Source of the DNA: Candidatus Omnitrophota bacterium | GTDB taxonomy: Bacteria > Omnitrophota > Gorgyraeia > Tantalellales > Tantalellaceae | Assembly (NCBI GenBank): GCA_016783605.1 | Contig: JADHWG010000005.1 | Location: 1-57,913 of the forward strand | Length of the DNA stretch: 57,913 nucleotides | Reading direction: 5' to 3' | Shown: positions 1,950 to 19,875 of the stretch, piece after piece | Position numbering within the stretch: position 1 is the first letter of the stretch | Layout: every line of letters begins with the position of its first letter | The notes under the pieces: model-generated | The model's database searches: none | What the model was told of the DNA's origin: nothing | What the model saw: only the letters and a program-made list of their open reading frames with translations | Program-made: the position numbers and the translations under genes

Positions 1950-3002
1950 TTAGAAGTATTTATCGATGAATTTTATGGTTCCGGAGAAAAATCTTTTTAG
2001 GGCGCCGATACAAATGTGGTTTTTTTGGTTTTCGCTCGTGAGGTAATCCAATACTCCCAGCGGCGCGGAATACCCGGCTCTTTCAGGGGGGAGCTCTTCA
2101 TAATCTTTTCGGGCGCAAACTCCGGCAACAATCGGTACGTTAAAAAACTGTTCGGAGAACTCTATTAGTTCTTCAAAAAGAGCGCCGGAGCCGGCAACTA
2201 TAATTTTCTGCACCTTTTCCCATTCACACAATTTTGTACCTTCGGAATATAAATTTTCTAACACACTTCTTTCAACAATTCCGTTCCCCGAGACATATTT
2301 ATCCGTCCCGTACGAAAAAACCCGGCAATCGGCCAATGTCCCGCGATCAAAAAGCATAATTTCGGTTAGGTTTTTGTGTAAGTTAAATATTGCCGTAACC
2401 ATATTCTTGTCTTCATCATTTAAAAACCGATACGAAGAAGCAAGGCCGGAAAAAACAAAACCGGCCGGAACAAATCCCGCGTGAGCGATACATTTTGACA
2501 TGTTATTTAAAACGGACGAATTTATTGTCAGAATATTTACATCAACACCTAATTTCACGCCATCAAGATCCATCGGATTTTTAATGCCTTTTTCGCTATC
2601 AATATAAAATTCGCGCGCTATCTTATGTAAAGGCTCTTTATCCAAAGGGATCTTCACGGTCGAGGCAATATCTATACACCTGGCGATATCACGCTGGCGC
2701 ACTTCTCTTCCATATTTTGAAAGAAGCACCACGCCGCTTGAAGATATCCGATCTATCGACGCGGAAGTAACAGCCGCGTAAACATCAGATGCCTTTTTCC
2801 CGGTTTTTTCAGTCAGTTTATTAAGAACTTCCGATATTGAACCGGAAGCTTGGACAACATCTGAAATTATTCCTCCGCTAAAGGCCTCTGATTTTACTCG
2901 CGCGAAATCTTCAAAAACGCAAGATCCGTTCTTTCGCCACCTTGCCATAACCGCGGAGACCTCCCCGCGGCCGGCATTAATAACAGCAACATATTTTTCC
3001 AT
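1950..3002 (-). CDS. ftsA: FtsA-like cell-division protein with degenerate ATP-binding motifs
   Basis: This 350-residue protein is the last gene of the dcw operon. The FtsA signature region is clear: KNPMDLDGVKLGVDVNILT (about 141-159) and AGFVPAGFVFSGLASSYRFL (about 175-194) align with the 1C domain and interdomain segment of FtsA. The C-terminus ends in a basic, aromatic helix (KRFFSGTIKFIDKYF) like the FtsA membrane anchor. The actin-fold nucleotide motifs are not intact. Phosphate-1 reads INAGRGE instead of (D/E)IGT, phosphate-2 reads IFNLHKN instead of DIGGGT, and the stretch before the adenosine motif is about 70 residues shorter than in E. coli, which removes much of subdomain 2B, the FtsZ-binding part. 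An AGGG site precedes the ATG. Identity as an FtsA homologue is firm; a conventional ATPase role is doubtful. Confidence 0.85.
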   Translation of the reverse strand: MEKYVAVINAGRGEVSAVMARWRKNGSCVFEDFARVKSEAFSGGIISDVVQASGSISEVLNKLTEKTGKKASDVYAAVTSASIDRISSSGVVLLSKYGREVRQRDIARCIDIASTVKIPLDKEPLHKIAREFYIDSEKGIKNPMDLDGVKLGVDVNILTINSSVLNNMSKCIAHAGFVPAGFVFSGLASSYRFLNDEDKNMVTAIFNLHKNLTEIMLFDRGTLADCRVFSYGTDKYVSGNGIVERSVLENLYSEGTKLCEWEKVQKIIVAGSGALFEELIEFSEQFFNVPIVAGVCARKDYEELPPERAGYSAPLGVLDYLTSENQKNHICIGALKRFFSGTIKFIDKYF

Positions 3003-3164: not shown

Positions 3165-3965
3165 TTATCGAAACGACAATACCGCGGCTTCAAATCTTAG
3201 ATCTATGTATTTCAAATCCTTAATGTTCAGTTCCGGGTCATTCAATATTTCTTTCAATGAATCGATCTTTCTCACAAAATTGTCTTTGCCCACTTTAACC
3301 ACAACGCCGGATATGCTCAATTGAATGTTATTGCGATCGTGAACGTTTATAAAATCTATGTTCTTTGTGTCAACATCGCCTTTTTTAGACAAACCTCGAA
3401 TAAGAAGCAGAGCCCTGCTTAACGCTCCATTTTTTATTCGGTCTCCCTTTCCCGGCGTTTTTAGAAAGAAATTTATACCCTTTATCATCACTATTTCTTC
3501 CATGCTTTGGCCGACCGCGAGCACTATTCCTTCGGAATCAACAACCACTCCGCCGACCGAATCGATCACAGCGACAGGTTCTCTCGGAACAATATCAAAT
3601 TCAAGCATATTGGGAAAATTCCTCCGTATTTCTATTTCTTTAAATTGAGGGAAATCATCTTTCGTGATCACCTGAATTTGTTTCAGATCCACGGTAAATA
3701 TGTTGCGTCCCAGATAAAACTCATTCAATTTATTCAAGTTTTCGTCAAAAGAATGCTCTGACTTCACATTTACACATATTTCTTTTATTTCGAACAATTT
3801 GCTATTATAAAAAAAGTGCCTTACTCCCAAAAAGATCCCGCCCGCAATGGCGAAAAGTATCACTAAGAACAGAACGATCCTTAAAAAATATGCTTGAGAC
3901 GAAATATAAACTTCTGAATATCCGCTTCCCTTTGACGAACGTGAGTTTGTCTTCTTTTTAGACAT
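3165..3965 (-). CDS. ftsQ: Cell-division protein FtsQ
   Basis: A 266-residue bitopic membrane protein. It has a lysine/serine-rich cytoplasmic tail (1-25), one membrane segment (about 28-49), then a POTRA-type domain starting FEIKEICVNV and including IRRNFPNMLEFDIVPREPVAVID, followed by the FtsQ C-terminal domain. FtsQ bridges FtsA/FtsZ-side and FtsL/FtsB/FtsI-side divisome proteins in the periplasm. Its place between ddl and ftsA is the classic one. A GAGGAGA-type site precedes the ATG. The N-terminal tail is short and the protein close to usual length. Confidence 0.85.
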   Translation of the reverse strand: MSKKKTNSRSSKGSGYSEVYISSQAYFLRIVLFLVILFAIAGGIFLGVRHFFYNSKLFEIKEICVNVKSEHSFDENLNKLNEFYLGRNIFTVDLKQIQVITKDDFPQFKEIEIRRNFPNMLEFDIVPREPVAVIDSVGGVVVDSEGIVLAVGQSMEEIVMIKGINFFLKTPGKGDRIKNGALSRALLLIRGLSKKGDVDTKNIDFINVHDRNNIQLSISGVVVKVGKDNFVRKIDSLKEILNDPELNIKDLKYIDLRFEAAVLSFR

Positions 3966-3998: not shown

Positions 3999-4925
3999 TT
4001 ATCTTTTCAGCGACGAATAAAGCATTTTAACACATAACGAACAAAAATCCAAATCAGCCGCTTTTGCCGCCATCGGCAAAAGACTTTTTTCCGTAAGTCC
4101 GGGAATGGTATTTACCTCCAATACAAATATTTTTTCATCATCAGAGAGGATAAGATCCACTCTGGAAAACCCTCCGCACCCGAGAGCTCCATGCGCTTTC
4201 ATTGCGACCTGCTGAACTTTTGAATATACTTTTTCCTCAAGCACCGCCGGTACGCGATATGCTGTCTCATCCGACTCATATTTCGCGGTAAAATCATAAA
4301 CGCCTTGTTTGGTTATGATCTCTACGATCGGAAGCGCCGCGCGATCCATTATTCCAACGGTTAGTTCTCGTCCGTGAATAAATTTTTCGATAAGCACCTC
4401 ATCCGCGAACATAAAGGCTTTATCTATTCCTTCGGAAAAATCATCTTCCGAAAAAACAACGGAAAGCCCGATACTGGACCCCTCATATCTGGGTTTTATC
4501 ACACATGGAAAACCGATTTTCTCCGCGGTAATATTTTCACTTCTTCCTACCAGTCGGCATTTCGGCACCGTAAGAGCCGCGTTTTTGAATCTTTCTCTTG
4601 AGGAAAACTTGTCTAACGCCAGAGCCGACGAAACCGGATTGCTTCCTGTATACGTTATGTTACGCTTCTCCAACATACGCTGAACAGCGCCATCTTCTCC
4701 GAATTTTCCGTGTAAAGCGATAAACGCCACATCAATATCAGTTTCATCTATCAAAGATTCAAAATTATCCTCGCAAATATCACAAAAAATTGGTCCAAGT
4801 CCCGCGCCGGAAAGCGCGGCAAAAACGGCATTTCCACTTCTTAGACTAATTTCCCGCTCATTGGAACTGCCCCCCGCCAAAACCCCAATTTTGTACCCCT
4901 TTAACTTATCAATTTCACAATTCAT
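3999..4925 (-). CDS. ddl: D-alanine--D-alanine ligase
   Basis: This enzyme makes the D-Ala-D-Ala dipeptide used by MurF. The protein has 308 residues from the ATG at 4925. It opens with a Ddl N-terminal motif (YKIGVLAGGSSNEREISLRSG) and contains ATP-grasp motifs (KPRYEGSSIGLSVV; EVNTIPGLTEKSLLP). The open frame extends 23 codons further upstream, but that extension (VGSTYEGSTYEVV) is translated repeat sequence. ATG at 4925 has a GTGAGGG site eight bases upstream and starts the conserved domain, so it was chosen. Neighbours murB and ftsQ complete a standard cell-wall order. Confidence 0.93.
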   Translation of the reverse strand: MNCEIDKLKGYKIGVLAGGSSNEREISLRSGNAVFAALSGAGLGPIFCDICEDNFESLIDETDIDVAFIALHGKFGEDGAVQRMLEKRNITYTGSNPVSSALALDKFSSRERFKNAALTVPKCRLVGRSENITAEKIGFPCVIKPRYEGSSIGLSVVFSEDDFSEGIDKAFMFADEVLIEKFIHGRELTVGIMDRAALPIVEIITKQGVYDFTAKYESDETAYRVPAVLEEKVYSKVQQVAMKAHGALGCGGFSRVDLILSDDEKIFVLEVNTIPGLTEKSLLPMAAKAADLDFCSLCVKMLYSSLKR

Positions 4926-4938
4926 AGTTTTTCCCTCA

Positions 4939-5029
4939 CCCCCCAAAACAACCTCGTAGGTTGAACCTTCGTAGGTTGAACCTACGAGGTTCAACCTACA
5001 GGTTCAACCTACGAGGTTGTTTGGGGGGG
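4939..5029. repeat. Long inverted repeat of the CCTCGTAGGTTGAAC family between murB and ddl
   Basis: A 91-base element bounded by CCCCCCAAAACAACCTCG and its complement. It contains four head-to-head copies of a GTAGGTTGAACCT unit. It fills the murB-ddl gap exactly and abuts the murB stop codon and the ddl ribosome-binding site. Confidence 0.8.
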
Positions 5030-5932
5030 TTATAAAATTTCTATTTCGGGTTTTAAATTTATTTTAAAGACATTTTTTACTTTTTTTTGGATATCCTCCA
5101 TAAGCGCGATTACGTCGCCCGAGGAAGCTCCTCCGGTATTCACTATAAAATTTGCGTGTTTTCTTGAGACCATTGCCGCGCCGCGCCGCGCGCCTTTCAT
5201 GCCGGACTTATCTATTAACTCACCGCTTGAAGGGGAGCCTTTTCCCTGATTTTTAAATATGCATCCCAAAGTTTTCTCGGTTAAGGGCTGATTCCGAGTT
5301 TTTTCGCGGATGTAAGAATTAAACTTTTTCTCCAGAACCTCGGAGGGAACTTTTTCCAAACAAAACTCCGCTTGAACTATGATTTCCTCTCCGCCGAACG
5401 AAGATGAACGATATCCGAATTCAATTTCTTCTTTTCCCCTCGACACATATTTTCCTTGTTTATCTAAGATCAAAACTCTCAACAGTTTTTCACTAACGGC
5501 GTTTTTGTAAGAGGCATTCATTTTAACGGCGCCGCCAATCGTGGCGGGAATACCCGCGGTTCCCTCCAGTCCTCCCAATCCGCTCCGACAGCAAGTAATA
5601 ATAAGTTTTCCGAGACTTATTCCTCCTCCGGCCGTCACCACATTGTTCTTTATTTTTGATCCGCTAAAAAAATCGCCCGACAATTTGATAATAACACCGT
5701 CAAAACCCGCCTCGCGAACTAAAATATTGCTCGCGTTGCCGATAACTTTCATCTTTATTCCCGCGCGTTTCAAAAGATCAACGGTTTGGCGTAAAGTTTC
5801 CACATCCGTGACCTTTATCCACGCATTGGCATTTCCGCCGATCCCGATAGACGTTAGGCTTGAAACGGAATAATCAAAGAAAACATCCCCGCCGCATAAT
5901 TTTATCAATTTTTTTTGTAGTTCGCTATTCAA
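5030..5932 (-). CDS. murB: UDP-N-acetylenolpyruvoylglucosamine reductase MurB
   Basis: An FAD/NADPH-dependent reductase forming UDP-MurNAc in the cytoplasm; 300 residues. FAD-binding motifs are visible: GNASNILVREAGFDGVIIKL (about 61-80) and GLEGTAGIPATIGGAVKMNA (about 119-138). The catalytic proton donor, usually serine in a GS-FKNP motif, is cysteine here (TLGCIFKN). This substitution is known in other bacterial MurB proteins. The C-terminal motif ELIDKSGMKGARRGAAMVSRKHANFIVN is intact. AAGGTGAG precedes the ATG. It lies between murC and ddl, as in many dcw clusters. Confidence 0.93.
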   Translation of the reverse strand: MNSELQKKLIKLCGGDVFFDYSVSSLTSIGIGGNANAWIKVTDVETLRQTVDLLKRAGIKMKVIGNASNILVREAGFDGVIIKLSGDFFSGSKIKNNVVTAGGGISLGKLIITCCRSGLGGLEGTAGIPATIGGAVKMNASYKNAVSEKLLRVLILDKQGKYVSRGKEEIEFGYRSSSFGGEEIIVQAEFCLEKVPSEVLEKKFNSYIREKTRNQPLTEKTLGCIFKNQGKGSPSSGELIDKSGMKGARRGAAMVSRKHANFIVNTGGASSGDVIALMEDIQKKVKNVFKINLKPEIEIL

Positions 5933-5954: not shown

Positions 5955-6066
5955 GGGCACGGCATGCCGTGCCCCTACGGATGACCTCGTGATGCGGGCA
6001 CATGCAATGTGCCCCTACATTTTAAATCAACCGGCCGCATGAGGGCACATGCAATGTGCCCCTACG
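5955..6066. repeat. Three adjacent GGGCAC-type palindromes between murC and murB
   Basis: One GGGCACGGCATGCCGTGCCC copy (5955-5979) and two GGGCACATGCAATGTGCCCC copies (5996-6018 and 6043-6066), all flanked by CTACG on the same side. The last copy overlaps the 3' end of murC and encodes its final residues. Confidence 0.85.
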
Positions 6067-7455
6067 AATTCGATCAATTATCTTACCTGAAACTTCTCTA
6101 ATGTCTCCGGCGCCGAGCACCAAAACCATGTCATCCTGTTTCGCTGTTTCGCGGATAAATTCCGGAATATCTTTTTTTCTTAAAAATACGACTTTCTCAA
6201 ATCGTGTTTTGTCCATGTCTCGACATATATTCTCGATTTTTATCTCTTCCGCGGCGGATTCGTCCGCGGAATATATATCCGTTAAAACAAGAATGTCCGA
6301 GGAATAAAAACAATTCGAAAATTCTCGTTTAAGATCTTTCGTCCGGCTATAGCGATGAGGCTGAAAAACGGAAATGATCCTGCCGGAAGTATTATATCTG
6401 CGAGCCGCGGTAATTACAGAATTTAGCTCCGTCGGGTGATGCGCGTAATCTTCAACAACTTTTACGCCTTTCGCGGTTCCAATAATATCAAACCTTCTTT
6501 TTACTCCGCTAAACGAATCTAACGCTGAGGCAATTTCCGCGGAGGAAAGGCCGATTTCAAGACACACTGAGACGGCCGCCAATATGTTCATCAAATTATA
6601 TCGGCCGATAAGGGAACTCGTAAACCGCCGGGATCGGGCGCCTTTCGCGTTCAGTTCAAACTCAATAAATTTATCAAACTTGACATGCTTTGCTGATACG
6701 TCAAACTCGCCGTCCAATCCAAAAGAGATCGTCCGCGCGCGGAGTTCCTCGCGAAAAGATCTTAGGATCGGATCCTCTCCGTTAAAAACAAAAAAACCGT
6801 CTTTTGAGATCCCCCGCGCGAATTCTTTATATGCTTCGGTAAGGTTTTCCATAGACCCGTAATGTTCAATATGCTCTCTTTCAATGTTTGTCACTACCGC
6901 GCATTTCGGGCGAATATTCCTAAAATATCCGTCGCTTTCGTCAATTTCAGCGACCGCGATCCAACCGCCGCCCAATTTCGCGTTGCCGTTAAACAACTCA
7001 ACCTCGCCTCCGATAATAACAGTCGGAGTTTTCCCGCATATATGCAAAATATGCGAAATAATAGAGGTCGTCGTGGTTTTCCCATGCGTTCCGGTAATGC
7101 CGACCGAAAGATCGTGCTCCAGGATGATCATTCTCAGGAGTTCCCCTCTTGAGATAATTTTCACCCCGAGCTTTTTCGCCTGAAGGATCTCGGGATTGTC
7201 ATTTCCAATGCAACTGGATCTTACCGCTATATCCGTATCGGGCGGGACATTGAGCGCGTCGTGTCCTTCAAATATAACTGAGCCCAACCGCTTAAGTTCA
7301 TCTGTAAGATCATTCAGTCTCAGATCCGAGCCGGTTATAATATGCCCTTTTGAAAGATATATCTTCGCCAAAGCGCTCATGCCGATTCCACCGATTCCTA
7401 TAAAATGAATGTTCTTCACGCGTTTGCCGTATATTTCAAGTCGATCAGCTGACAT
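6022..7455 (-). CDS. murC: UDP-N-acetylmuramate--L-alanine ligase MurC
   Basis: Adds L-alanine to UDP-MurNAc. Taking ATG at 7455 gives 477 residues. The dinucleotide-like GIGGIGMSALA (about 20-30) and P-loop TGTHGKTTTT (about 121-130) are intact, as are the middle-domain DESDGYF and C-terminal DYAHHPTE motifs. A longer upstream frame overlaps murG and does not look like MurC, so it was rejected. The natural end should be near IIDRIRR. The last dozen residues (GTLHVPSCGRLI) come from an inserted GGGCACATGCAATGTGCCCC palindrome. Enzyme identity is not in doubt. Confidence 0.93.
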   Translation of the reverse strand: MSADRLEIYGKRVKNIHFIGIGGIGMSALAKIYLSKGHIITGSDLRLNDLTDELKRLGSVIFEGHDALNVPPDTDIAVRSSCIGNDNPEILQAKKLGVKIISRGELLRMIILEHDLSVGITGTHGKTTTTSIISHILHICGKTPTVIIGGEVELFNGNAKLGGGWIAVAEIDESDGYFRNIRPKCAVVTNIEREHIEHYGSMENLTEAYKEFARGISKDGFFVFNGEDPILRSFREELRARTISFGLDGEFDVSAKHVKFDKFIEFELNAKGARSRRFTSSLIGRYNLMNILAAVSVCLEIGLSSAEIASALDSFSGVKRRFDIIGTAKGVKVVEDYAHHPTELNSVITAARRYNTSGRIISVFQPHRYSRTKDLKREFSNCFYSSDILVLTDIYSADESAAEEIKIENICRDMDKTRFEKVVFLRKKDIPEFIRETAKQDDMVLVLGAGDIREVSGKIIDRIRRGTLHVPSCGRLI

Positions 7456-7456
7456 A

Positions 7457-8581
7457 TTAACAAAGTCCCTTCCTTCTTTGCGCCAACAAAACAACCTCTT
7501 TTGCCAATTTCTCCCCGGCATCGGGAACGCTTTGCCTACCCGCGGCCAGCGCCATATCTCGAAGTTTTGAACCATTCGTCAATAAATTCAACACTTCCCG
7601 AGCCAGATCCTCGGAAGAAAATCCCTTTTCTTCTCTATGAATAGCTCCCCCCTCACGCGCGAAATATTCCGCGTTCGACCTTTGATTATTTTTCGGATTG
7701 GGATACGGAACAAGTATCATCGGTTTCGAATAAAATGCCAGTTCAAATATTGCCGACGCGCCTGAACGCGTGATCGCCAGATCACTCACACAATACGCGT
7801 CCGCTATCGAATCCAAAAACGAAAAAACTTTTCCCGGAATTTTGTGTTCACGAAAAAAACGTTTTATTTTCTCATGATCTTTTTTGCCTGTCAGATGAAT
7901 AAACTGAACCGCGCCCGCCCCGCGAAGCGGTTCGTTTATTATGCGCGCCGCCTCGCCCGCGGTATTATTAAGGAAAGAACACCCTTGGCTTCCCCCCATT
8001 ACAAGAACCGTTTTTATCTCCGGCGATATCCCGAGTCTTTGAGCCGATTGAATTCTATCGTTGGTTAGCATTTCCAATCTCAAAGGGTTTCCTGAATAAA
8101 CCACACGCGTCTTTCTTTCTCCGGGAAAAAACGTGAAAGATCCCTTGAAGCTAACGGCGATCGCGTCGGCAAAACGGCTTAAGATCCGATTCGCTCTACC
8201 GGGAAAAAAATTTTGCTCATGCACAAGAACGGGAATTCCGAACATTTTTGCGGCAACAATTATCGTTCCCGATGAATATCCTCCGAACCCGACGCACACA
8301 TCCGGCGCGGTTTTCGCGATGATATAAAGCGACCTTACCGCGTCAGTGAAAGACTTTATTAAAAAAATAAAAATGCGATAAATATTAAACTTTCGCGGCA
8401 TAGGGTTTACAGACAGAAAAAAACACGGATAACGGCAATTCGCGAAAAGAGTCTTATCCAACCGGCGGCGGCTTGAAACAAAGAACATATCTTTTATTCC
8501 CTTTTTCTCCAATTCTCGGCTCAAAGCGATCGAAGGAAAAATATGACCGCCGCTTCCCCCGGCGGCAAGAAGGATCCTCAT
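7457..8581 (-). CDS. murG: Lipid II synthase MurG
   Basis: A membrane-associated GT-B glycosyltransferase that adds GlcNAc to lipid I to form lipid II; 374 residues. The N-terminal glycine loop GGSGGHIFPSIAL (8-20), the second loop GGSQG, and the UDP-GlcNAc-binding C-terminal SGASAIFELAFYSKPMILVPYP with NNQRSNAEYF are visible. Spacing to ftsW is one base, and to murC one base after the stop, so the genes are translationally coupled. The length is typical of the family. Confidence 0.95.
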   Translation of the reverse strand: MRILLAAGGSGGHIFPSIALSRELEKKGIKDMFFVSSRRRLDKTLFANCRYPCFFLSVNPMPRKFNIYRIFIFLIKSFTDAVRSLYIIAKTAPDVCVGFGGYSSGTIIVAAKMFGIPVLVHEQNFFPGRANRILSRFADAIAVSFKGSFTFFPGERKTRVVYSGNPLRLEMLTNDRIQSAQRLGISPEIKTVLVMGGSQGCSFLNNTAGEAARIINEPLRGAGAVQFIHLTGKKDHEKIKRFFREHKIPGKVFSFLDSIADAYCVSDLAITRSGASAIFELAFYSKPMILVPYPNPKNNQRSNAEYFAREGGAIHREEKGFSSEDLAREVLNLLTNGSKLRDMALAAGRQSVPDAGEKLAKEVVLLAQRRKGLC

Positions 8582-8582
8582 T

Positions 8583-9668
8583 TTATTCCACCCCCCTTGC
8601 CAAATTCAAGATAAGTCCGCAAGCGGCCAGATGACTGATAAGAGAACTTCCGCCATAACTTATAAACGGCAGCGGCAACCCTTTCGTAGGCAGCATCCCG
8701 GTCGAAACCCCGATATTAACAATAACCTCGAACGCGATAATGATACTGATCCCCATAACCGCGCGCGAGGCAAACGTATCGTGCAGTTTGAAACAAATTC
8801 TGAGTGAAAACCATAAAAACAACGCGAAAAGTGTCAATATTCCCACAGTTCCCAAAAAACCCAACTCCTCACCTATTATGGAAAATATAAAGTCCGTATG
8901 TGACGCGGGAAGATAAAACAGTTTTTGCCGGCTCATTCCGAGTCCCGCTCCCCAAAATCCGCCGGAACCAAGCGCGATAAACGATTGAACAAGTTGAAAC
9001 CCCGCACCCTTCGCGTCATTCCAAGGATTAATAAAAGTCAATATCCGTCTTATCCGATACGGTTCCATAAGTATTGCCGCCCCGACAACCGGAATGGCGC
9101 CAACGGCGACGTATGATAAATGTTTTAATTTCACGCCCGAAACAAATAACATTACGACTCCCGCGACCAATATCGCCACAGCCGTTCCCATATCGGGTTC
9201 AATAAGAACCAAAGCCGCAGTAACGCCTATTACAATCATCGGCGCGAGTATCCCGTATTTGAAGTTTTGCATCAGATATTTTTTTCGCGCCGTTAAATCG
9301 GCAAGATAAAGCACCAAAGCAAATTTCACTAATTCCGAAGGCTGGATCCCAATTCCCAAAAATCGTATCCATCTCCTTGCGCCACCCGCTTCGGAACCTA
9401 TCCCGGGAATCAAAACAAGAACTAAAAGAGTTATCAAAAAAAGCATTATCCATTTCGAGTTTTTTGCTATCGCTTTAATAGGGATCGACATACACACTAT
9501 TGCCGCGATCACCCCTCCCGCCAAACACGCGACGTGCCGTTTCACAAAATACATACTGTCTCCGGTTTGGCTATAAGCATAAACGGCACTCGAAGAATAG
9601 ATCATTACTATCCCGATCATTAAAAGCAGAAAAACCGTTCCCAAAACTATTTTTGAATTATTATTCAT
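8583..9668 (-). CDS. ftsW: Peptidoglycan polymerase FtsW (SEDS family)
   Basis: A multi-pass SEDS protein of 361 residues that polymerises lipid II at the septum together with FtsI. About ten membrane segments are evident. Conserved loops include GARRWIRFLGIGIQPSELVKFALVLYLAD, HTDFIFSIIGEELGFLG and the C-terminal LPFISYGGSSLISHLAACGLILN. Its start overlaps the murD stop by four bases (ATGA), indicating coupling. It is encoded in the same operon as the partner transpeptidase FtsI. Confidence 0.94.
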   Translation of the reverse strand: MNNNSKIVLGTVFLLLMIGIVMIYSSSAVYAYSQTGDSMYFVKRHVACLAGGVIAAIVCMSIPIKAIAKNSKWIMLFLITLLVLVLIPGIGSEAGGARRWIRFLGIGIQPSELVKFALVLYLADLTARKKYLMQNFKYGILAPMIVIGVTAALVLIEPDMGTAVAILVAGVVMLFVSGVKLKHLSYVAVGAIPVVGAAILMEPYRIRRILTFINPWNDAKGAGFQLVQSFIALGSGGFWGAGLGMSRQKLFYLPASHTDFIFSIIGEELGFLGTVGILTLFALFLWFSLRICFKLHDTFASRAVMGISIIIAFEVIVNIGVSTGMLPTKGLPLPFISYGGSSLISHLAACGLILNLARGVE

Positions 9669-11065
9669 ACTTTTAAACTGCCCGTTTGCCGCGGCCGACG
9701 CCCGAATGACAACAAAAGCTTTTCTACTTCCCGAGAGAAAACTTCACCGCGTTCTTTATAACCGGAAAACATATCAAAACTGGAACACATCGGAGAAAGT
9801 AAAACCGTATCGCCCATCTCGGCCAAAGAAATACTTTTTTCGACCGCCTCCCTCATGGAAGAAACGCGCGTTACCGGAACCGCTTTTTTGAAAGCACCAT
9901 CCATGATACCGGCAGATTCACCTATCAAAACCATCGCCTTTACCTTTTTTTTCACGAGAGATAAAATAGAAGCGTAATTCCCGCCTTTATCTCGTCCGCC
10001 GGCAATGAGTATCACTTTCCCTTGAATTTGCTCAAGCGCGGCGCGGGAAGCGTCTATATTTGTAGCCTTGGAATCGTCCACAAATTCTATGCCTCCGGAA
10101 ACCGCGATTTTTTCGCATCTATGCGCCAAGGCCTTGAATGTTACAACACTTTGGCGGATAACACGCTTGTCAATTCCCATAATACCAGAGGCGTACGCGG
10201 CGCTTTGGATATTATCAAGATTGTGAGTTCCTTTAAGGAATAGTTCTTTTTCGTGGGCGATGAACTCCTTTTTTCCGTCTATTTCAATTATCACATCTTT
10301 ATTTTTGTGCGAATGAAAAATACACCGGCTCTTTATATTTTTCGTTATCGTATCTTTTAGAAAAGTTGAATTTAAAATAGCCCAATCTTTTTCCGTTTGA
10401 TTTTCAAAAATTTTAAACTTACTTCTTTTATAATTCTCATAATTGCCATGCCTTTCGTAATGATCGACCGTTATATTCAGCAAGATGGCTATATGAGGCT
10501 TAAACTTTCTTATGGTTTCCAACTGAAAAGAACTTACCTCCACCACCGCCACACTTTCAGCCGTAAGCCGATCTATTTCTCCGCACAAAGGATTGCCTAT
10601 ATTTCCCGACAGAACCGCGTGTCTGCCTCCCGCGGAAAGGATGCTCCCAATAAGCCTTGTTGTAGTGCTCTTACCGTTTGTACCGGTAATGGCAATGATA
10701 GGTGCCGGAGAAAATAAAAATCCCAATTCCAATTCACCCAAGACAACGGCTTTCTTGGAAATAATTCCACGCAAACATAAGGGCTGAACATTTATACCGG
10801 GACTGGCGATGACCATTTTTGAATTGCCGCAAAATTTCGCCGTATGGCCGCCAATTTCATATCCAACAAGATGATCTTTCAATGTTTCAAGTCGAATTCG
10901 AACTTCCGGAGTATCAAAACCCTCGCTTATCCGAACCTGAGCCCCTCGATCCGCCAAAAGCCTGCAAGCCGCCTCACCGCTAACACCAAGCCCCAACACC
11001 AAAATTTTCTTACCCTTAACATTCACCATGTATACACACCAAAGAATTGCACCTCGTAGGTGCAA
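9665..11065 (-). CDS. murD: UDP-N-acetylmuramoylalanine--D-glutamate ligase MurD
   Basis: Adds D-glutamate to UDP-MurNAc-L-Ala. Motifs: KILVLGLGVSGEAACRLL near the N-terminus, the P-loop TGTNGKSTTTRL and C-terminal DDSKATN. The start is ambiguous in an interesting way. TTG at 11065 has an ideal AAGGAG site seven bases upstream, but its first dozen residues (MHLRGAILWCVY) are encoded by a hairpin repeat (11044-11066). ATG at 11029 begins exactly at the conserved domain but has no good site. I kept the longer form on ribosome-site evidence; the enzyme itself is certain. Confidence 0.9.
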   Translation of the reverse strand: MHLRGAILWCVYMVNVKGKKILVLGLGVSGEAACRLLADRGAQVRISEGFDTPEVRIRLETLKDHLVGYEIGGHTAKFCGNSKMVIASPGINVQPLCLRGIISKKAVVLGELELGFLFSPAPIIAITGTNGKSTTTRLIGSILSAGGRHAVLSGNIGNPLCGEIDRLTAESVAVVEVSSFQLETIRKFKPHIAILLNITVDHYERHGNYENYKRSKFKIFENQTEKDWAILNSTFLKDTITKNIKSRCIFHSHKNKDVIIEIDGKKEFIAHEKELFLKGTHNLDNIQSAAYASGIMGIDKRVIRQSVVTFKALAHRCEKIAVSGGIEFVDDSKATNIDASRAALEQIQGKVILIAGGRDKGGNYASILSLVKKKVKAMVLIGESAGIMDGAFKKAVPVTRVSSMREAVEKSISLAEMGDTVLLSPMCSSFDMFSGYKERGEVFSREVEKLLLSFGRRPRQTGSLKV

Positions 11066-11381: not shown

Positions 11382-12470
11382 CTACCGTACCTTAAGCGCC
11401 GCGATACTTAATATTGCGAATATGGCGGCGACTATTAGAAAACGCATCGTGATCTTGGCCTCATGCCACCCCTTTATTTGAAAATGGTGATGGATCGGGG
11501 TCATAAGAAAAACACGTTTTTTTGTCATTTTGAAAAATGTGACCTGAATAATAACTGACATTGCCTCCATTACCAAAACAGCGCCGGCAAGAAGCAAAAG
11601 AAACTCTTTTTTTATCAAAACACTTATTATCGCGATCGTTCCGCCGAGAGAAAGAGCTCCCGTGTCTCCCATAAATATCGTGGCGGGATAACTATTGAAC
11701 CAAAGAAAGCCGAGCCCCGCTCCCGTCAGCGCCGCGCAAAATACCGTAAGTTCTCCGGCGCCGGGAAGATAAAAAATATGCAGATATTGGCTCAAATCGG
11801 CGTGACCCGTAATATAGCTGAACACAGCATATGTAAACGTCACAAATATGACACATCCGACAGCCAAACCATCGAGTCCATCGGTAAGGTTTACCGCGTT
11901 TGAAGACCCGACGATCACGATGAGTATAAAAATTATGTAGAAAATACCGAGATTACAAACACTATTTTTTATAAACGGAAGATATAGATCAGCGCCTATC
12001 GCCTTGTTTTGTAAAACGAAAACCCCTACGATAAGAGCAAGAATGATCTGTCCTGCCAATTTGCTCTTTCCGCGTATACCTTTGGAACTTTTATTCTTAA
12101 GTTTCATAAAGTCGTCCAGGAAACCAACCAATCCCAACCAGATCATGCCGGCCATTGTCAATAAAACGTAACTGTTGTCCAAACGACACCACAAAAGAGA
12201 AGACACAATGACAGAAACGATGATCAGGATCCCCCCCATCGTAGGCGTTCCTTCTTTATGTTTATGAAAGTCATAGATTCCCGCCACGTGTTCCTTGCGA
12301 ACATATTGCCCGATCTTAAAAGTTCGAAGCCATTTGATTATTACCGGGCCTATACTCACACAAATAATAAAGGACGTAAAGGCCGCAAGTCCCGCGCGAA
12401 ACGTTATGTATTTAAAAATATTGAATCCGAACCAAAACTCTTTTAATTGGTATAAAAAGTGGTATAGCAC
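11382..12470 (-). CDS. mraY: Phospho-N-acetylmuramoyl-pentapeptide transferase MraY
   Basis: An integral membrane enzyme that transfers phospho-MurNAc-pentapeptide to undecaprenyl phosphate, giving lipid I; 362 residues and about ten membrane segments. Hallmarks: KEGTPTMGGILI, DDFMKLKNKSSKGI, NAVNLTDGLDGLA, FMGDTGALSLGG and the histidine-rich loop MTPIHHHFQIKGWHE. The start MLYHFLYQLKEFWFGFNIFKYITFRA is typical of the family, even though it overlaps the end of murF by 28 bases. Confidence 0.95.
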   Translation of the reverse strand: MLYHFLYQLKEFWFGFNIFKYITFRAGLAAFTSFIICVSIGPVIIKWLRTFKIGQYVRKEHVAGIYDFHKHKEGTPTMGGILIIVSVIVSSLLWCRLDNSYVLLTMAGMIWLGLVGFLDDFMKLKNKSSKGIRGKSKLAGQIILALIVGVFVLQNKAIGADLYLPFIKNSVCNLGIFYIIFILIVIVGSSNAVNLTDGLDGLAVGCVIFVTFTYAVFSYITGHADLSQYLHIFYLPGAGELTVFCAALTGAGLGFLWFNSYPATIFMGDTGALSLGGTIAIISVLIKKEFLLLLAGAVLVMEAMSVIIQVTFFKMTKKRVFLMTPIHHHFQIKGWHEAKITMRFLIVAAIFAILSIAALKVR

Positions 12471-13819
12471 TTGATCACTTCCTCCATTTTTGACACACGA
12501 GATCCTTTTACAAGCACGGTTGTATCCGCGTCCGACATTTCATTTACTATTTTTCCAGCGTTTTCGGCGTCTTCCGCGCAAATAATCTTCCCGGGATCCA
12601 TCCCCGCGCCTTCCGCCGCCAGAGCGATCTCTCTAGCACTGGTTCCGACAACAACAAGAAAATCAATATTTTTTTTCGCTATACTTTTTCCAACCTCTCT
12701 ATGAAAAAAGCCGCTCCGGATCCCGAGTTCTGACATACCTCCCGCGACAACGCCTTTTTTTTTCGAGCTGACGGATTTCAAAAATCTAAGCGCGCATTCA
12801 AAAGAATCCGGGTTGGCGTTATATGAATCATTAATAAAATTGCAATTTCCGAAAACCATTTTTTCCAGCCTCATTTTCGGAAGACGTGTTCCCAACAGCG
12901 CTCCACACGCCAGGTCATACCCAATACCGAAACTTTCCGCCGCGAGTATTGCGGCGGAAGCATTATAAACGTTATGTGCGCCGGCTACCGGCAGATAATA
13001 TTTTTTCCCGCTTAAATAAAACTCGTATCCATCGTTCTTTTCCCGGATCTTCTCGATCACCTCATCGCTTTGTTCATCCGTTCCAAAAAAAGAAACCGAA
13101 ATCTTTTTCGAACGAACACTTCCCAACAGAACGTCATCCTTATTAAGAAAAGCTTTTCCCCCAACCGGCAGGAAATCCAACAATTTCCGTTTCTCGTTAA
13201 AAACGCCTCTTTTATCGCTTAATCCGTTCAAATGACCGCATCCTATATTCGTGATAACGGCCGCGTTCGGCGCCGCGATACCTGATAAAGTCGATATTTC
13301 ACCGGGTGCGTTCGTTCCAAGCTCAATAACCGCGATATCAAAATCATCAACCAACCGAAAGAGAGTCAAGCTGAGACCGATAACATTGTTATAAGAGGCC
13401 GGACTTTTGAGAACCCGATACTTCACCGAAAGAATATCCGCCAGGATATTCTTAACCGTAGTTTTTCCGTTTGTTCCGGTTACACAAATGAACGGGATCT
13501 TCGATCCTTTTCTTATTGCCGAGGCGATATCACACATCGCTTTGGTCGCATCTTTGACAACAATAACACTCGCTTGATTTTGTCTTAACAGCTCTCCATC
13601 GGCATGATCGACTATTACACCGCTCGCGTTTTTTTGAACCGCCCTGGAGACAAAATCATGACCATCGTAATTATCCCCTTTGATCGCGATAAAAAACTGT
13701 CCACTCTTTATTGTTCTTGAATCAATAGAAAATCCGGTAGTAATCTTTTCTTCTTTATTTCTCGAAAATAATTTCCCACCCGTAATTTCAGCGATTTCCT
13801 CGATCGAAAACTTATACAT
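12443..13819 (-). CDS. murF: UDP-N-acetylmuramoyl-tripeptide--D-alanyl-D-alanine ligase MurF
   Basis: Joins D-Ala-D-Ala (from Ddl) to the UDP-MurNAc-tripeptide; 458 residues. It shows the Mur-ligase P-loop TGTNGKTTVKNILA, NNVIGLSLTLFRL, the central-domain ELGTNAPGEIS and C-terminal INDSYNANPDSFECALRFL. Its start follows a TAGGA site. The 5' side is separated from murE by a four-copy tandem repeat array (13832-14105), and the 3' end overlaps mraY. Confidence 0.95.
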   Translation of the reverse strand: MYKFSIEEIAEITGGKLFSRNKEEKITTGFSIDSRTIKSGQFFIAIKGDNYDGHDFVSRAVQKNASGVIVDHADGELLRQNQASVIVVKDATKAMCDIASAIRKGSKIPFICVTGTNGKTTVKNILADILSVKYRVLKSPASYNNVIGLSLTLFRLVDDFDIAVIELGTNAPGEISTLSGIAAPNAAVITNIGCGHLNGLSDKRGVFNEKRKLLDFLPVGGKAFLNKDDVLLGSVRSKKISVSFFGTDEQSDEVIEKIREKNDGYEFYLSGKKYYLPVAGAHNVYNASAAILAAESFGIGYDLACGALLGTRLPKMRLEKMVFGNCNFINDSYNANPDSFECALRFLKSVSSKKKGVVAGGMSELGIRSGFFHREVGKSIAKKNIDFLVVVGTSAREIALAAEGAGMDPGKIICAEDAENAGKIVNEMSDADTTVLVKGSRVSKMEEVIKCYTTFYTN

Positions 13820-14125: not shown

Positions 14126-15562
14126 TTAAAAATATCCCTTTTCCTCTAACGCCTCTTTTGCGACTTTTTTGTCATCAAACGGCAGGATCTCGTTTTGCAT
14201 GATCTGATAATTCTCGTGCCCTTTGCCGGCGATAAGAACGATATCTCTTTCTCCCGCGGAACTTACCGCTTCATGTATCGCGCACCGGCGCGACTCTATT
14301 ATACTATAGTTGGTTTTGCCTACCATCCCTTTTTCAATGTCACTCAATATGCTCTTCGCGCATTCGCCTCTGGGATTGTCATTTGTAATTATGACCACAT
14401 CCGAGAATTCACCCGCGATACGCCCCATTACCGGACGCTTTGACTTATCTCTGTCACCTCCACACCCGAAAACGCAAATAAGTTTGCCCCGCACGAGCCG
14501 CCTGAGAGCCGATAAAACACTTTTCAGCGCGTCCGGGGTATGCGCGTAATCGATAAAAACTTTAAATGGAGCATTACTCTCAACAGGATCAAGCCTTCCG
14601 GGCGGAGCGGAAAATTCTTCAACACCTTTTTTAATCGCGTCAAGATCCATACCGGAGGCAAAAAACACACTTACGGCGGCCAATATGTTATACACATTGA
14701 ATGCACCGACAAGCCCGGTTTTGATCGCAACGGTACCGGCACCTTCGGTCTTTATGTCAAATTCCGTTCTTCCTGAAAAAAAACGCAAATTCTCCGCGCG
14801 AACGTTCGCCTTTTCTTTTATTCCGAAAGAAATAAGTTTCGATGCCTTAATTTTAGCGGAGGTGCTTATGACCAAAGGATCATCCGCATTTAATATTGCC
14901 GCTCCCCGCGGTTTAAGATTTTCAAATATGCGCGTCTTCTCATAAAGATACGTTTGCATATTTTTATGATAATCCAAATGTTCCGGAGTTATATTCGTAA
15001 ATACCGCCGAATCCAAAGCAATGCCTGAAATCCTGCCCTGGCTAAGCGCGTGAGAAGAAATTTCCAAAGCTACAGACCGTTTTCCATCGGCAACCATTTT
15101 CGCGAACATTCGGTTAAGCGTCAAAACATCCGGGGTTGTTAAAGTCGACCTTTTCAATTCGGTGCCGGTTTGTTTTGTAAAAACCGTACTGACAAACCCG
15201 CTTGCCGAACCCAAAGCATCCGAAATCGCGTCGATCAAAAATACACACGTAGTTTTCCCATTAGTTCCCGTTACCCCGTGCACTCGAAACATACTTGACG
15301 GATCTCCGAAAACGTCCTTCGCGGCGAGAGCTATCGCGTGTTTCGTATCTCCCGAAACTATAAACTTCTCCCGCGCTTCTTTTGGAATTTCTTCCGGAAT
15401 TCTTTCGCAATAAACCGCACTCGCCCCTTTTCCAAGAGCCTCTTGAATATGATCATGCCCGTCAAAAACCGTACCTTTTACCGCAAAGAAAATATCTCCC
15501 GGCATCACTTTACGAGAATCCGTTTTTATGTTCGTTCTATTTAACTTTGCTATTTTTGTCAT
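14126..15562 (-). CDS. murE: UDP-N-acetylmuramoyl-tripeptide synthetase MurE (meso-DAP type)
   Basis: Adds the third amino acid of the peptide stem; 478 residues. The P-loop TGTNGKTT lies at about 98-105. The specificity motif DNPRGECA matches the DNPR signature of meso-diaminopimelate-adding enzymes, so the peptidoglycan is predicted to be of the mDAP type. A DYAHTPDAL motif is also present. No strong ribosome-binding site precedes the ATG at 15562, but the N-terminus aligns with the start of the catalytic fold, so no better start is apparent. Confidence 0.94.
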   Translation of the reverse strand: MTKIAKLNRTNIKTDSRKVMPGDIFFAVKGTVFDGHDHIQEALGKGASAVYCERIPEEIPKEAREKFIVSGDTKHAIALAAKDVFGDPSSMFRVHGVTGTNGKTTCVFLIDAISDALGSASGFVSTVFTKQTGTELKRSTLTTPDVLTLNRMFAKMVADGKRSVALEISSHALSQGRISGIALDSAVFTNITPEHLDYHKNMQTYLYEKTRIFENLKPRGAAILNADDPLVISTSAKIKASKLISFGIKEKANVRAENLRFFSGRTEFDIKTEGAGTVAIKTGLVGAFNVYNILAAVSVFFASGMDLDAIKKGVEEFSAPPGRLDPVESNAPFKVFIDYAHTPDALKSVLSALRRLVRGKLICVFGCGGDRDKSKRPVMGRIAGEFSDVVIITNDNPRGECAKSILSDIEKGMVGKTNYSIIESRRCAIHEAVSSAGERDIVLIAGKGHENYQIMQNEILPFDDKKVAKEALEEKGYF

Positions 15563-15681: not shown

Positions 15682-17364
15682 TCAAGAAACGCGCGCTGAA
15701 TCCTTCGAATCCATATATTGCAATATGCGTTCTGCCATCTTTTTAAACACCGGCGCGGCTACAACTCCTCCAAAATATACCGGATGGGGATCAAAAACAG
15801 TAACAACTATGCTTAAAACCGGCGCGTCCGCCGGAGCGATACCGATAAAAGTCGCGTCATACTTATCAGAAAAATATCCGCCGTCCGGGTTGACCTTTTG
15901 GGCGGTTCCCGTTTTTCCGGCCATTTGATACAAGTCTGATGAGGCACGCCGTCCGGTACCGGCAGTAACCGCGTATTTTAAAATTTCCCTCATCTTGAGA
16001 CAAGTATCTTCCTTGAGCACTCTCTGCCTCACGGTTGGCTTAAATTGCCGATACACTCCGCCTCCCCATGTGGTTATTTTATCCACAATGTACGGCTTTA
16101 CCAAATATCCGCCGTTGGCGATCACGCTCATCGCCGCCGCCAATTGAATCGGAGTCACCGCTATACCTTGCCCGATAGGTATGGTCGTTATGTCACTCCT
16201 CGACCATGCCGAAAAAGGACGGCTGATACCGCTAACTTCTCCGGGCAATGAAACAGATGTCTTCTCGCCAAACCCAAACCGTTTTATATAATTGTATAAT
16301 TTTTTTCCGCCGAGTTTTTTTGCCGCTTTTACCGTGCCGATATTACTCGATTTACCTATTACTTCACGAAATGTAAGCTCTCCATATTTATGAAAATCAT
16401 GCAGCACTCTGCCTGAAACTCGATAGCTCCCTCTTTCACAGTAAAACTTATCATCCAAATCGACAACGCCTTCATTTATCACAGCACTGGCCGTAATTAC
16501 TTTGAACACACTTCCCGGTTCATAAATATTGGAAATGGCCTTGTTCTTAAAGACTTCTCGACGAACATTCTCAAAATCGTTCAGATCATAACCGGGATAA
16601 TTCGCCAAAGCCAAAATTCTGCCGGTGGCTGGTTCCATAACTAACGCTACAGCTCCACTGGCCTTATATTTACGCGCTTGTTTTGAAAGTTCCTCTTCAG
16701 TTATGTATTGAATAACACTATCGATCGTCAGCACAATATTAAAACCGTTCTCTGCCGGAATAGAATCCTTATCAACAAACAGAACCGTCTCACTTTTCGC
16801 GTCCTTTATCAGATGCCTGTACCCCGATTTTCCCTTCAATTTTCCATCAAACTCAAGTTCGATCCCTTCCAAACCGTTATTGTCAACTCCAACAAACCCT
16901 ATCACATGCGCGGCCATAGTGTCACCGGTATATTCCCTCTTATTTTCCGTCACAAAATCTATACCGGTAAGTTTCTGCTTTTTGATCTTTTTCGCAAGGC
17001 GCTCATCAATTTTCCGTTTGATCCAGATAAACGCTTTTTGTTTATCGAATTTTTCCCTTAAAACTTTTTTGTCCATACGCAAAATTCTTGCAAGTATGGA
17101 AGAGGTTCGTTTTTGATCGGTTATTATTCTCGGATTACAAAACACGCTTGGAACTTCGAGATTTACGGCCAACGGTTCCATATCGGAATCATATATCACG
17201 CCGCGCTGCGGTTTTATTTCGAGCACCTTATTATGCTGATTTGAAGCCATCCCGGTAAACTTTTCGCACTCGATGATCTGTAAACAAAAGAGACGAAAAA
17301 AAAGCGCCGCAAGAAACACCATTACAAATAGAAACACCACATATTGGCGAGTTTTATACATCAT
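15682..17364 (-). CDS. ftsI: Peptidoglycan transpeptidase FtsI (class B PBP)
   Basis: The septal class B penicillin-binding protein, 560 residues. It has a short cytoplasmic tail and a membrane anchor (about 8-30), then a PBP dimer domain (RGVIYDSDMEPLAVN at about 54-68) and a transpeptidase domain. Active-site motifs are intact: SVFK with the acylated serine at about 285, SSN at about 339-341, and KTG at about 484-486. The partner polymerase FtsW is encoded downstream in the same operon. Two ATGs are adjacent at the start; the first gives the listed length. No PASTA domain is present. Confidence 0.95.
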   Translation of the reverse strand: MMYKTRQYVVFLFVMVFLAALFFRLFCLQIIECEKFTGMASNQHNKVLEIKPQRGVIYDSDMEPLAVNLEVPSVFCNPRIITDQKRTSSILARILRMDKKVLREKFDKQKAFIWIKRKIDERLAKKIKKQKLTGIDFVTENKREYTGDTMAAHVIGFVGVDNNGLEGIELEFDGKLKGKSGYRHLIKDAKSETVLFVDKDSIPAENGFNIVLTIDSVIQYITEEELSKQARKYKASGAVALVMEPATGRILALANYPGYDLNDFENVRREVFKNKAISNIYEPGSVFKVITASAVINEGVVDLDDKFYCERGSYRVSGRVLHDFHKYGELTFREVIGKSSNIGTVKAAKKLGGKKLYNYIKRFGFGEKTSVSLPGEVSGISRPFSAWSRSDITTIPIGQGIAVTPIQLAAAMSVIANGGYLVKPYIVDKITTWGGGVYRQFKPTVRQRVLKEDTCLKMREILKYAVTAGTGRRASSDLYQMAGKTGTAQKVNPDGGYFSDKYDATFIGIAPADAPVLSIVVTVFDPHPVYFGGVVAAPVFKKMAERILQYMDSKDSARVS

Positions 17365-17396: not shown

Positions 17397-17762
17397 TTAA
17401 ACGCGGGGTTTGGCTTCGGCACTCAACGTGAAAAGGTCAAAAAACTTTTCGATCAAACTCCCGCCAAAAGACTTCTCGAAAGTTTCGCTGGAAGCGATCT
17501 GACAGTTATTTGTCCGTCCGGTCCGGAGACTAGCAAACTCGATTTCTTCTCCGCTGAGCGAGATAAGAAGATTTCTAGGAGATTCCAGTTTGGATAGATT
17601 ATACATTAACTTCGAATTTTGGTCAACGATACGCGCCAAGTCTTGCCTGTTCTGCTGAAGAAAATACCCGGTTTTCACGATCTCAACCCGCTGATGGACA
17701 TATCCAACGGCGATCATCGTGACCAATACTCCCATTGATATAAACTTATGAAATTTCATCAA
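17397..17762 (-). CDS. ftsL: FtsL-like divisome protein
   Basis: A small bitopic protein of about 120 residues between rsmH and ftsI, where FtsL is encoded in dcw clusters. It has a short basic N-terminus, one membrane helix (about 8-24) and a segment with helical heptad character (about 30-60). The sequence is too divergent to recognise by itself, so the call rests on position, size and topology. The start is TTG at 17762 or the adjacent ATG at 17759, both served by a GGAAAGAG site. The rsmH stop immediately precedes it. Confidence 0.7.
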   Translation of the reverse strand: MMKFHKFISMGVLVTMIAVGYVHQRVEIVKTGYFLQQNRQDLARIVDQNSKLMYNLSKLESPRNLLISLSGEEIEFASLRTGRTNNCQIASSETFEKSFGGSLIEKFFDLFTLSAEAKPRV

Positions 17763-18659
17763 TTACACTCTTTCCGCGCATCGCAATTTGGCGCTTCTTG
17801 CCCTTGAATTTGCCCGAATTTCATCTCTTCCGGGCGTAATGGGCTTTTTTGTAATAATTTTGAGTTTTTCTTCCCGAGCGGCATTCCTGAATAAATTTTT
17901 TATTATTCTATCCTCAAGCGAATGGAACGAAATAACGCATATTCTCGCGCGGGCGGCCAAGAATCCCAAAGTCTCACGAACGCCGACTTCCGCCGACTCA
18001 AGCTCATCGTTAACGTATATCCTTAACGCTTGAAAGGTCCTCGCGGCCGGATGTAAACGAACCTTACGATATTTCCGTCCCACCGCCGCCAATATCACTT
18101 CGGTCAATTCTTTCGTTGTCTCTATTCTTTTTTTCGCGCGCGCGCGAATTATTCCTCCGGCAACAAGCGATGCATGTCTTTCTTCCCCGTATTCTCTAAT
18201 TATCTCGGCAAGTTCATCTTTGCTGAAATCGTTTACAACACCGCACGCGCTTACATCCTGACAATTACTGAACCGCATATCCAACGGACCGTCTTTTAAA
18301 AAACTAAACCCTCGTTCCGCTTCGTCTATCTGATGAGATGAAACGCCCAGATCAAAGATCGCCCCATTCACCTTGTCCACACCAGCTATCCGCAATATAT
18401 CCCCGACATTTCGAAAATTATCGTTCACCCAAACTATGCGGCTGTTAAATTCAGATAAACTCTCTTTCGCGTTTTCTATCGCCTCCGGATCACGATCAAT
18501 CGCGATAAGCTTTCCCTTAGAACCTATTTTTTTCAAACATTGAGCGGCATGTCCCCCGCCGCCCAAAGTCGCGTCCAAAACGGTATCTCCCGGCGCCAGC
18601 TTCAAATATTCCATCACCTCTTGTAAAAGAACCGGAAGATGCAAAAAAAATCCTTTCAT
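17763..18659 (-). CDS. rsmH: 16S rRNA (cytosine-1402-N4)-methyltransferase RsmH
   Basis: An S-adenosylmethionine-dependent methyltransferase of 298 residues, formerly MraW. It begins with HLPVLLQEVMEYLKLAPGD and carries the SAM motif DATLGGGGHAAQCL. It also has FDLGVSSHQIDEAERGFSF, RTFQALRIYVNDEL and SFHSLEDRIIKNLFR, all diagnostic. Its position near mraZ at the head of the dcw cluster is conserved across bacteria. Length is typical. Confidence 0.95.
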   Translation of the reverse strand: MKGFFLHLPVLLQEVMEYLKLAPGDTVLDATLGGGGHAAQCLKKIGSKGKLIAIDRDPEAIENAKESLSEFNSRIVWVNDNFRNVGDILRIAGVDKVNGAIFDLGVSSHQIDEAERGFSFLKDGPLDMRFSNCQDVSACGVVNDFSKDELAEIIREYGEERHASLVAGGIIRARAKKRIETTKELTEVILAAVGRKYRKVRLHPAARTFQALRIYVNDELESAEVGVRETLGFLAARARICVISFHSLEDRIIKNLFRNAAREEKLKIITKKPITPGRDEIRANSRARSAKLRCAERV

Positions 18660-19193: not shown

Positions 19194-19631
19194 CTAAAAA
19201 TCCAAAAGATTTTCAGCAATATCCTCGTAACTTTCTTTGGAACTTTTATAAAAATTTTCCCACACGTCTTTGTCCCATATTTCAATTCGGTTGGATACGC
19301 CTATGATCATTATCTCTTTTGCGAGTCCCGCGTATTGTCTCAAATAATCGGGAACAAGCACACGCCACTGTTTATCCGGAACAGCTTCACTTGCTCCGGA
19401 AAAGAACATGCGTTTGAATTTTCTCACTTCTTTTTTTGTGAAAGACATCGATTTGAATTTATTTTCCTGAAGCTTCCATTCAGTTTCAGCAAACATAAAT
19501 AGACACTTATCCAACCCGCGAGTGATATAAAACTTCTCTATACACAACTCCTCAACAGCATCGCGAAAACGAGCAGGTATGATCAACCGATTCTTCTTAT
19601 CCAATATGTGTTCATACTCACCATAAAACAT
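19194..19631 (-). CDS. mraZ: Transcriptional regulator MraZ
   Basis: MraZ is a double SpoVT-AbrB-type DNA-binding protein that represses its own dcw operon. The start was set at ATG 19631 because the product then begins MFYGEYEHILDKKNRLIIPARFR, the conserved first DXXXR-type swapped-hairpin motif. The second motif is DKQWRVLVPDYLRQYAGL. The longer open frame upstream is translated repeat and promoter sequence. Length is 145 residues, as usual. Three direct repeats that fit its operator lie directly upstream. Confidence 0.93.
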   Translation of the reverse strand: MFYGEYEHILDKKNRLIIPARFRDAVEELCIEKFYITRGLDKCLFMFAETEWKLQENKFKSMSFTKKEVRKFKRMFFSGASEAVPDKQWRVLVPDYLRQYAGLAKEIMIIGVSNRIEIWDKDVWENFYKSSKESYEDIAENLLDF

Positions 19632-19632
19632 T

Positions 19633-19696
19633 CCACTTCCCCCCACTTTGCTCCACTTACACCAACGAGTATACCCAAAAAATGGCCCAAAGTCAA
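19633..19696 (-). promoter_or_regulatory. dcw operon promoter with a triple MraZ box
   Basis: On the minus strand, TTGACT (19691-19696) and TATACT (19668-19673) are 17 bases apart. Downstream, AAGTGG occurs three times at exactly 10-base intervals (complements at 19633-19638, 19643-19648 and 19653-19658), ending just before the mraZ ATG. MraZ is known to bind direct repeats of this kind (AAAGTG[G/T] or TGGG cores, 10-bp spacing), so this is a very likely autoregulatory operator covering the transcription start. Confidence 0.8.
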
Positions 19697-19722
19697 CCAC
19701 CAAAACCCTAACAATTTCACAT

Positions 19723-19875
19723 CGTAGGGGCACGGCATGCCGTGCCCTCATAAACCGACGAATAAATTCATTGCGATACTACTTTTTTCACGCTATCATT
19801 CATCTAACCCCAAACAACCTCGTAGGTTGAACCTCGTAGGTTCAACCTACGAGGTTGTTTGGGGGGTGGGTTAGG
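19723..19875. repeat. Two palindromes upstream of the dcw promoter
   Basis: A GGGGCACGGCATGCCGTGCC copy (19723-19747) and a 72-base inverted repeat of CCTCGTAGGTTGAACC units bounded by CTAACCCCAAACAACC (19804-19875). With the promoter they account for most of the 353 bases between mraZ and the next gene. Confidence 0.8.

Follow-up and report, generated by a model that had tools for sequence, protein, structure and literature searches.

The FtsA protein of E. coli binds the tail of FtsZ through subdomain 2B and recruits FtsN through subdomain 1C, with 1A-1C and 2A-2B as its oligomer faces, and forms that interact weakly with themselves are better at recruiting the downstream proteins (PMC9098913, PMC8998562). 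ATP-site mutants of this protein, such as E14R, have lost function (PMC10213515). For the Omnitrophota, a 2016 review found FtsZ in one of three Omnitrophica genomes and left the reality of the absence undecided (PMC5147048), and a 2025 paper groups the phylum with those having highly conserved dcw genes (PMC12283558). A survey of Omnitrophota genomes does not discuss division (PMC10066038). The absence of FtsZ in 'Omnitrophica' is already known at the level of a 2021 figure, which places them among the phyla without FtsZ; Planctomycetes and Chlamydiae are the only ones given there as being without FtsA as well (PMC8178401). As far as searchable papers show, neither the count over the phylum nor the synteny has been described, nor has the repeated loss from FtsA of 2B and of ATP motifs.

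Organization of the dcw cluster

The window, by which we mean the whole analysed stretch of 57,913 nucleotides from a Candidatus Omnitrophota genome, has on its minus strand a dcw cluster that is complete, running from mraZ to ftsA with ftsA as the last gene:

1950..3002 (-), ftsA-derived gene, 350 aa (TIGR01174, SHS2_FTSA, AlphaFold2 model, Foldseek)
3165..3965 (-), ftsQ (Pfam FtsQ_DivIB_C, 7e-8)
3999..4994 (-), ddl (Pfam Dala_Dala_lig_C, 3e-51)
5030..5932 (-), murB (position and sequence)
6022..7575 (-), murC
7457..8581 (-), murG (sequence)
8583..9668 (-), ftsW (Pfam FTSW_RODA_SPOVE, 5e-109)
9665..11065 (-), murD
11382..12470 (-), mraY (sequence)
12443..13819 (-), murF (Mur ligase domains, position)
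14126..15562 (-), murE (Mur ligase domains, position)
15682..17364 (-), ftsI, PBP transpeptidase (Pfam Transpeptidase, 3e-76)
17397..17762 (-), putative ftsL-like small protein, from its position between rsmH and ftsI; no Pfam match
17763..18659 (-), rsmH (mraW) (Pfam Methyltransf_5, 4e-104)
19194..19751 (-), mraZ (Pfam MraZ, 2e-39)

Of the 41 dcw ends read in Omnitrophota, about 39 have an ftsA-like gene behind ftsQ, and in none of the 41 does ftsZ come next. Twenty of these ends come from families with weak ftsA scores, and 18 of the 20 have the ftsA-like gene in this place. One dcw end (L109) was unreadable by a simple ORF caller, and in G211 (L112) genes other than ftsA come after ftsQ. 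In many families the order 3' of ftsA is yggS, proC, yggT, DUF167, nucleoside phosphorylase, ileS, dksA, lspA and mreB-mreC, the last pair belonging to one conserved cluster with ftsA, approximately 10–12 kb behind it (L039-L058; for example L040:506-2357 and G042:C1:948540-961005). This order resembles the one found after ftsZ in other bacteria, with ftsZ cleanly missing. The gene immediately behind ftsA is, depending on the family, proC/yggS, a glycine cleavage gene, ribA/B, or a gene for MlaC, a T2SSE ATPase or an O6-methylguanine methyltransferase, and since it varies in this way there is no common substitute for ftsZ; a replacement gene in its place was therefore rejected.

Downstream of ftsA in the window, at the contig end, the site of proC in relatives is occupied by a gene pair (567-1544) for a regulator of the HTH type and a peptidase of the M78 family (IrrE-type). 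The pair has the look of an insertion, mobile or toxin-antitoxin-like. The window also holds an interspersed palindromic repeat, TTCCACCTACGAGGTGGAA, in seven copies with up to two mismatches where none is expected (positions 1840, 3056, 3091, 11047, 11170, 38585 and 55575). Two of the copies fall between ftsQ and ftsA, and no loci other than those from the genome of the window showed the core of the repeat.

Absence of FtsZ from the phylum

The original prediction that ftsZ is not found beside the ftsA-like gene holds for the whole genome, which is 95% complete and gives no match to PF00091. TIGR00065 is without a match in all 59 relatives searched, and the two profiles give matches in 13 of 14 controls. 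In the phylum as a whole, 380 of 384 sampled Candidatus Omnitrophota genomes have no match to the FtsZ/tubulin profile PF00091, and these include closed single-contig genomes (G042). None of the four genomes with matches (G301, G217, G209 and G077) has a convincing native division FtsZ, those in G209 and G077 being sub-threshold. ZapA and MinC are likewise missing from all 59 relatives, both families being patchy even among the controls, and MreB is present in 58 of the 59.

The Omnitrophota MAG G301 has an archaeal-type FtsZ beside a FKBP26-like isomerase gene on a 3.7-kb contig (L034:3-1698), probably a contamination. Two of the 384 genomes encode, outside the dcw cluster, a TubZ-like tubulin-fold protein with a lysine/alanine-rich N-terminus (L035:1012-2295 in G217 and L038:999-2261 in G301), to which the window's genome has no match.

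FtsA itself is retained in most of the phylum. The ftsA profile matches 383 of 384 genomes at E <= 0.001; weak matches of about 1e-17 are no better than MreB would be expected to give by cross-reaction, and by hand count about 320 genomes are clearly better than that.

Identity of the ftsA gene

The open reading frame at 1950..3002 extends just three codons 5' of its ATG. Its product matches TIGR01174, the NCBIfam ftsA profile, with 4.7e-40 and 137.8 bits, which does not reach the equivalog cut-off of 175.85 bits, and the Pfam profile SHS2_FTSA (PF02491, subdomain 1C) with 6.8e-17 and 62 bits. No match was obtained with the Pfam profiles PF14450 (FtsA), MreB_Mbl and PilM_2. The gene is carried by 18 of 19 sampled genomes of the window's family, the exception being G011. 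Those relatives that have a name belong to Candidatus Omnitrophota, which agrees with the phylum assumed in the first reading. By its position right after ftsQ, its sequence and its predicted fold the product is an FtsA orthologue, and the first reading of the locus as a dcw cluster closing with an FtsA homologue is thus borne out.

A second ftsA elsewhere in the genome was looked for and rejected, the PF14450 matches there being MreB and PilM-type proteins. The former is encoded by a separate intact gene (G000:C38) and the PilM-type genes lie at other places in the genome. As these account for the remaining FtsA-like matches, there is neither a second ftsA nor a canonical ftsA-ftsZ pair, the finding that would have made the gene redundant. 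The suggestion of a repurposed paralogue finds no support, the gene being a single orthologue in the ancestral ftsQ-ftsA position.

Domain architecture and ATP-site motifs

The features within the gene are:

2961..2981 (-), phosphate-1 motif, residues 8-14, INAGRGE, with D/E replaced by N (aligned with the E. coli protein and 40+ FtsA from Omnitrophota)
2526..2759 (-), subdomain 1C (SHS2), residues 82-159 (Pfam PF02491, 62 bits; mean column conservation in the family 0.65)
2370..2390 (-), phosphate-2 motif, residues 205-211, IFNLHKN, with DIGGG lost (alignment)
2214..2348 (-), residual segment of 44 aa at the expected place of 2B (alignment and AlphaFold2 model)
2166..2207 (-), adenosine motif KIIVAGSGALFEEL, with GG changed to GS (alignment)
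1953..2000 (-), putative C-terminal amphipathic membrane helix ending YF (sequence property)

Between the phosphate-2 and adenosine motifs there are 44 residues in the window protein and 43–46 in its family, compared to 94–101 in most long-form Omnitrophota FtsA and 106 in E. coli, and a full subdomain 2B with the FtsZ-tail site (94–106 residues) is thus not found. Since the short form recurs in 18 independently assembled genomes of the family, it is not due to an assembly error. The original prediction put the missing part around 2B at approximately 70 residues; the loss is real, and the segment lengths give a size of about 50–60. Subdomain 1C is the best conserved region of FtsA in the window's family, with the mean column conservation given above. 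The last 16 residues should form an amphipathic helix, with a moment of 0.67 that is reached by 0.7% of shuffled sequences, as expected from the earlier description of a retained C-terminal segment. The helix is amphipathic in nearly all members of the family, and the YF end is common to nearly all Omnitrophota FtsA.

The AlphaFold2 model has a pLDDT of 86.5 and a pTM of 0.83, with an input alignment of only ten sequences and five models that span pLDDT 48 to 86. It shows the FtsA fold with 2B shrunk to a short linker region, where two short helices are predicted, and not the complete subdomain that would have spoken against its loss. The 19 top Foldseek matches of the model are all FtsA chains, with a TM score to the query of up to 0.79, and PilM ranks after them with 0.54–0.62.

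The motifs were compared in an alignment with more than 40 Omnitrophota FtsA and with an E. coli reference sequence, which is identical to that of the solved structure 7q6d in the part compared. In the window protein the acidic residue of phosphate-1 is N and the DIGGG of phosphate-2 is NLHKN. The claim that both motifs lack their acidic and glycine residues can be upheld for the acid and for DIGGG, while phosphate-1 retains one motif glycine. Judged by phosphate-1, phosphate-2 and the adenosine motif, the protein appears to have lost most of the ATP-binding signature of FtsA. The glycine at E. coli position 212 (phosphate-2) is found in 2 of 18 members of the window's family compared to 18 of 20 long-form relatives, that at position 337 in 1 of 18 compared to 18 of 20, and an acid at position 210 in 7 of 18 compared to 16 of 20. 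The phosphate-1 aspartate, replaced in the window protein, is present in 14 of the 18, and weak nucleotide binding may therefore occur in the family as a whole. Erosion of the ATP motifs is also seen where 2B is retained (families f46 and f11), and many relatives with 2B have a near-canonical phosphate-1 motif. In many relatives FtsA is in fact close to complete.

The FtsA proteins of family f46 (L101-L105) are extremely diverged, with scores of 27–79 bits. In four of the five genomes the gene is followed by one for a protein of 630–652 aa and then by one of 444–535 aa; when one genome was run against Pfam, the former product had no match and the latter was an HD-domain protein.

Evolution and selection

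In an FtsA tree built without the 2B columns, which is uncertain in places because of long branches, the short-2B state needs three changes, two of them forced by the starred branches. The lineages concerned are the clade that unites the window's family with f8, f10 and f30; family f7; and, from another class, family f59. A short 2B is likewise present in family f21, whose partial sequence was excluded from the tree. The sequences thus suggest that 2B was lost in about three Omnitrophota lineages, and the pattern of 2B and ATP motifs fits a relaxed constraint on FtsZ binding and ATP use after the loss of FtsZ.

In the window's family ftsA is under strong purifying selection. The genes of five members from five genera align over 350 codons without indels and with 45–56% amino-acid identity, in spite of only 22–35% identity at four-fold sites, which is near saturation, indicating that the protein is maintained and not decaying.

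Proposed role of FtsA in the absence of FtsZ

With 2B and the ATP motifs lost, and 1C and the membrane helix retained, a nucleotide-independent adaptor is the most likely role, and we consider that the window FtsA probably is an ATP-independent, FtsZ-independent and largely non-filamentous membrane adaptor for the late division proteins. This comes close to the membrane-bound divisome scaffold no longer polymerising with ATP that was proposed at first, which as an interpretation is the best fit to the pattern of 1C, helix, 2B and motifs. An ancestor of the lineage would have lost ftsZ, with ftsA staying in its ancestral place behind ftsQ. The FtsA of the window's family has shed 2B, and with it the FtsZ-tail site and one oligomerisation face, as well as most of the signature residues of the ATP site, while 1C and the C-terminal membrane helix stayed. 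The adaptor would sit at the inner face of the membrane and act through 1C on the late septal wall machinery, by recruitment or by signalling; possible partners are FtsQ, the FtsL-like protein, FtsW and FtsI, all from the same cluster, and a FtsN-like protein. Its working mode can be likened to the one proposed for monomeric, 'active' E. coli FtsA. We infer the lack of an ATP-driven filament, the partner proteins and the role in division. As E. coli ATP-site mutants fail (PMC10213515), an FtsA working without ATP must differ in mechanism.

Other explanations share part of this evidence. MreB might have replaced FtsZ as the cytoskeletal element, a takeover also proposed for Chlamydia, and FtsA would then connect MreB filaments with the septal synthases. 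The presence of MreB in 58 of 59 relatives, the position of mreB-mreC in many genomes, approximately 10–12 kb behind ftsA and within its conserved cluster, and the disappearance of FtsZ, ZapA and MinC agree with this, but rod-shaped bacteria commonly have MreB just for elongation and its link to FtsA is a gene clustering that is perhaps ancestral and unrelated, so that we find a takeover rather doubtful. By presence and gene neighbourhood only, MreB is the leading candidate for placing and constricting the ring. It is also unlikely that the shortened FtsA still polymerises via 1A-1C, with weak or no nucleotide binding, and is the division scaffold in its own right: of the two oligomer faces, the one made by 1A and 1C is well conserved and phosphate-1 is near-canonical in many relatives with 2B, but the 2A-2B face is deleted and the phosphate-2 and adenosine glycines are lost.

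A move of FtsA to a job outside division, for example in envelope growth or polarity, could explain its strong divergence between families and the loss of the usual FtsZ partners, but is improbable with a gene that adjoins ftsQ across the phylum and a protein that keeps 1C and the membrane helix. That a highly divergent FtsZ was missed and is still served by FtsA is very improbable, and was rejected by the PF00091 and TIGR00065 searches and the reading of contiguous dcw ends. FtsZ relatives of the TubZ-like kind do exist in 2 of the 384 genomes, but the window's genome has no match to them, the profiles that detect 13 of 14 controls find nothing here, the FtsZ-binding subdomain of FtsA is deleted, and neither ZapA nor MinC is present in the relatives. 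The eroded motifs and the lost domain could finally be taken as signs of a functionless, decaying vestige, a reading that is scarcely credible with an intact, indel-free frame under strong purifying selection across the family, and that was rejected for this family by the codon-level result.

A worn-down FtsA that is kept under selection without FtsZ appears to do a job that needs neither FtsZ nor the ATP site. For the phylum as a whole we suggest, more tentatively than for the adaptor role, that division may proceed via an FtsA-centred, FtsZ-free divisome, perhaps driven by MreB, and that FtsA was repeatedly cut down to a nucleotide-independent adaptor after the loss of FtsZ, which would show that the essential and ancestral task of FtsA can lie in signalling to the septal synthases and not in anchoring FtsZ. 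The usual description of FtsA is that of a membrane anchor for FtsZ; in this phylum FtsZ is gone and FtsA is selected across the phylum, and several lineages have additionally removed the FtsZ-binding part, which makes them a natural separation-of-function experiment. The conserved remainder, 1C and the membrane helix, indicates which portion of FtsA functions in the absence of FtsZ.

Comparison with known systems

The window protein shares with described FtsA proteins (TIGR01174; E. coli, V. maritimus and T. maritima; structures 7q6d, 7q6f and 4a2a) the gene position after ftsQ, the actin-like fold, the SHS2 subdomain 1C and the C-terminal amphipathic helix, but differs from canonical FtsA in the missing 2B, the eroded ATP motifs, a genome without FtsZ and a score below the equivalog cut-off. 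PilM of type IV pili has a related actin-like fold, and the structural match is clearly weaker (0.54–0.62 compared to up to 0.79). Hyperactive E. coli FtsA R286W would be in the same state as proposed here, weakly oligomeric and recruiting downstream proteins, but unlike the window FtsA it retains 2B, the ATP site and the dependence on FtsZ. The Chlamydiota and Planctomycetota likewise have an FtsZ-less divisome, with MreB present in Chlamydiota, but with few exceptions they have lost FtsA too (PMC8178401, PMC12283558), whereas in the Omnitrophota FtsA is retained together with a nearly complete dcw cluster.
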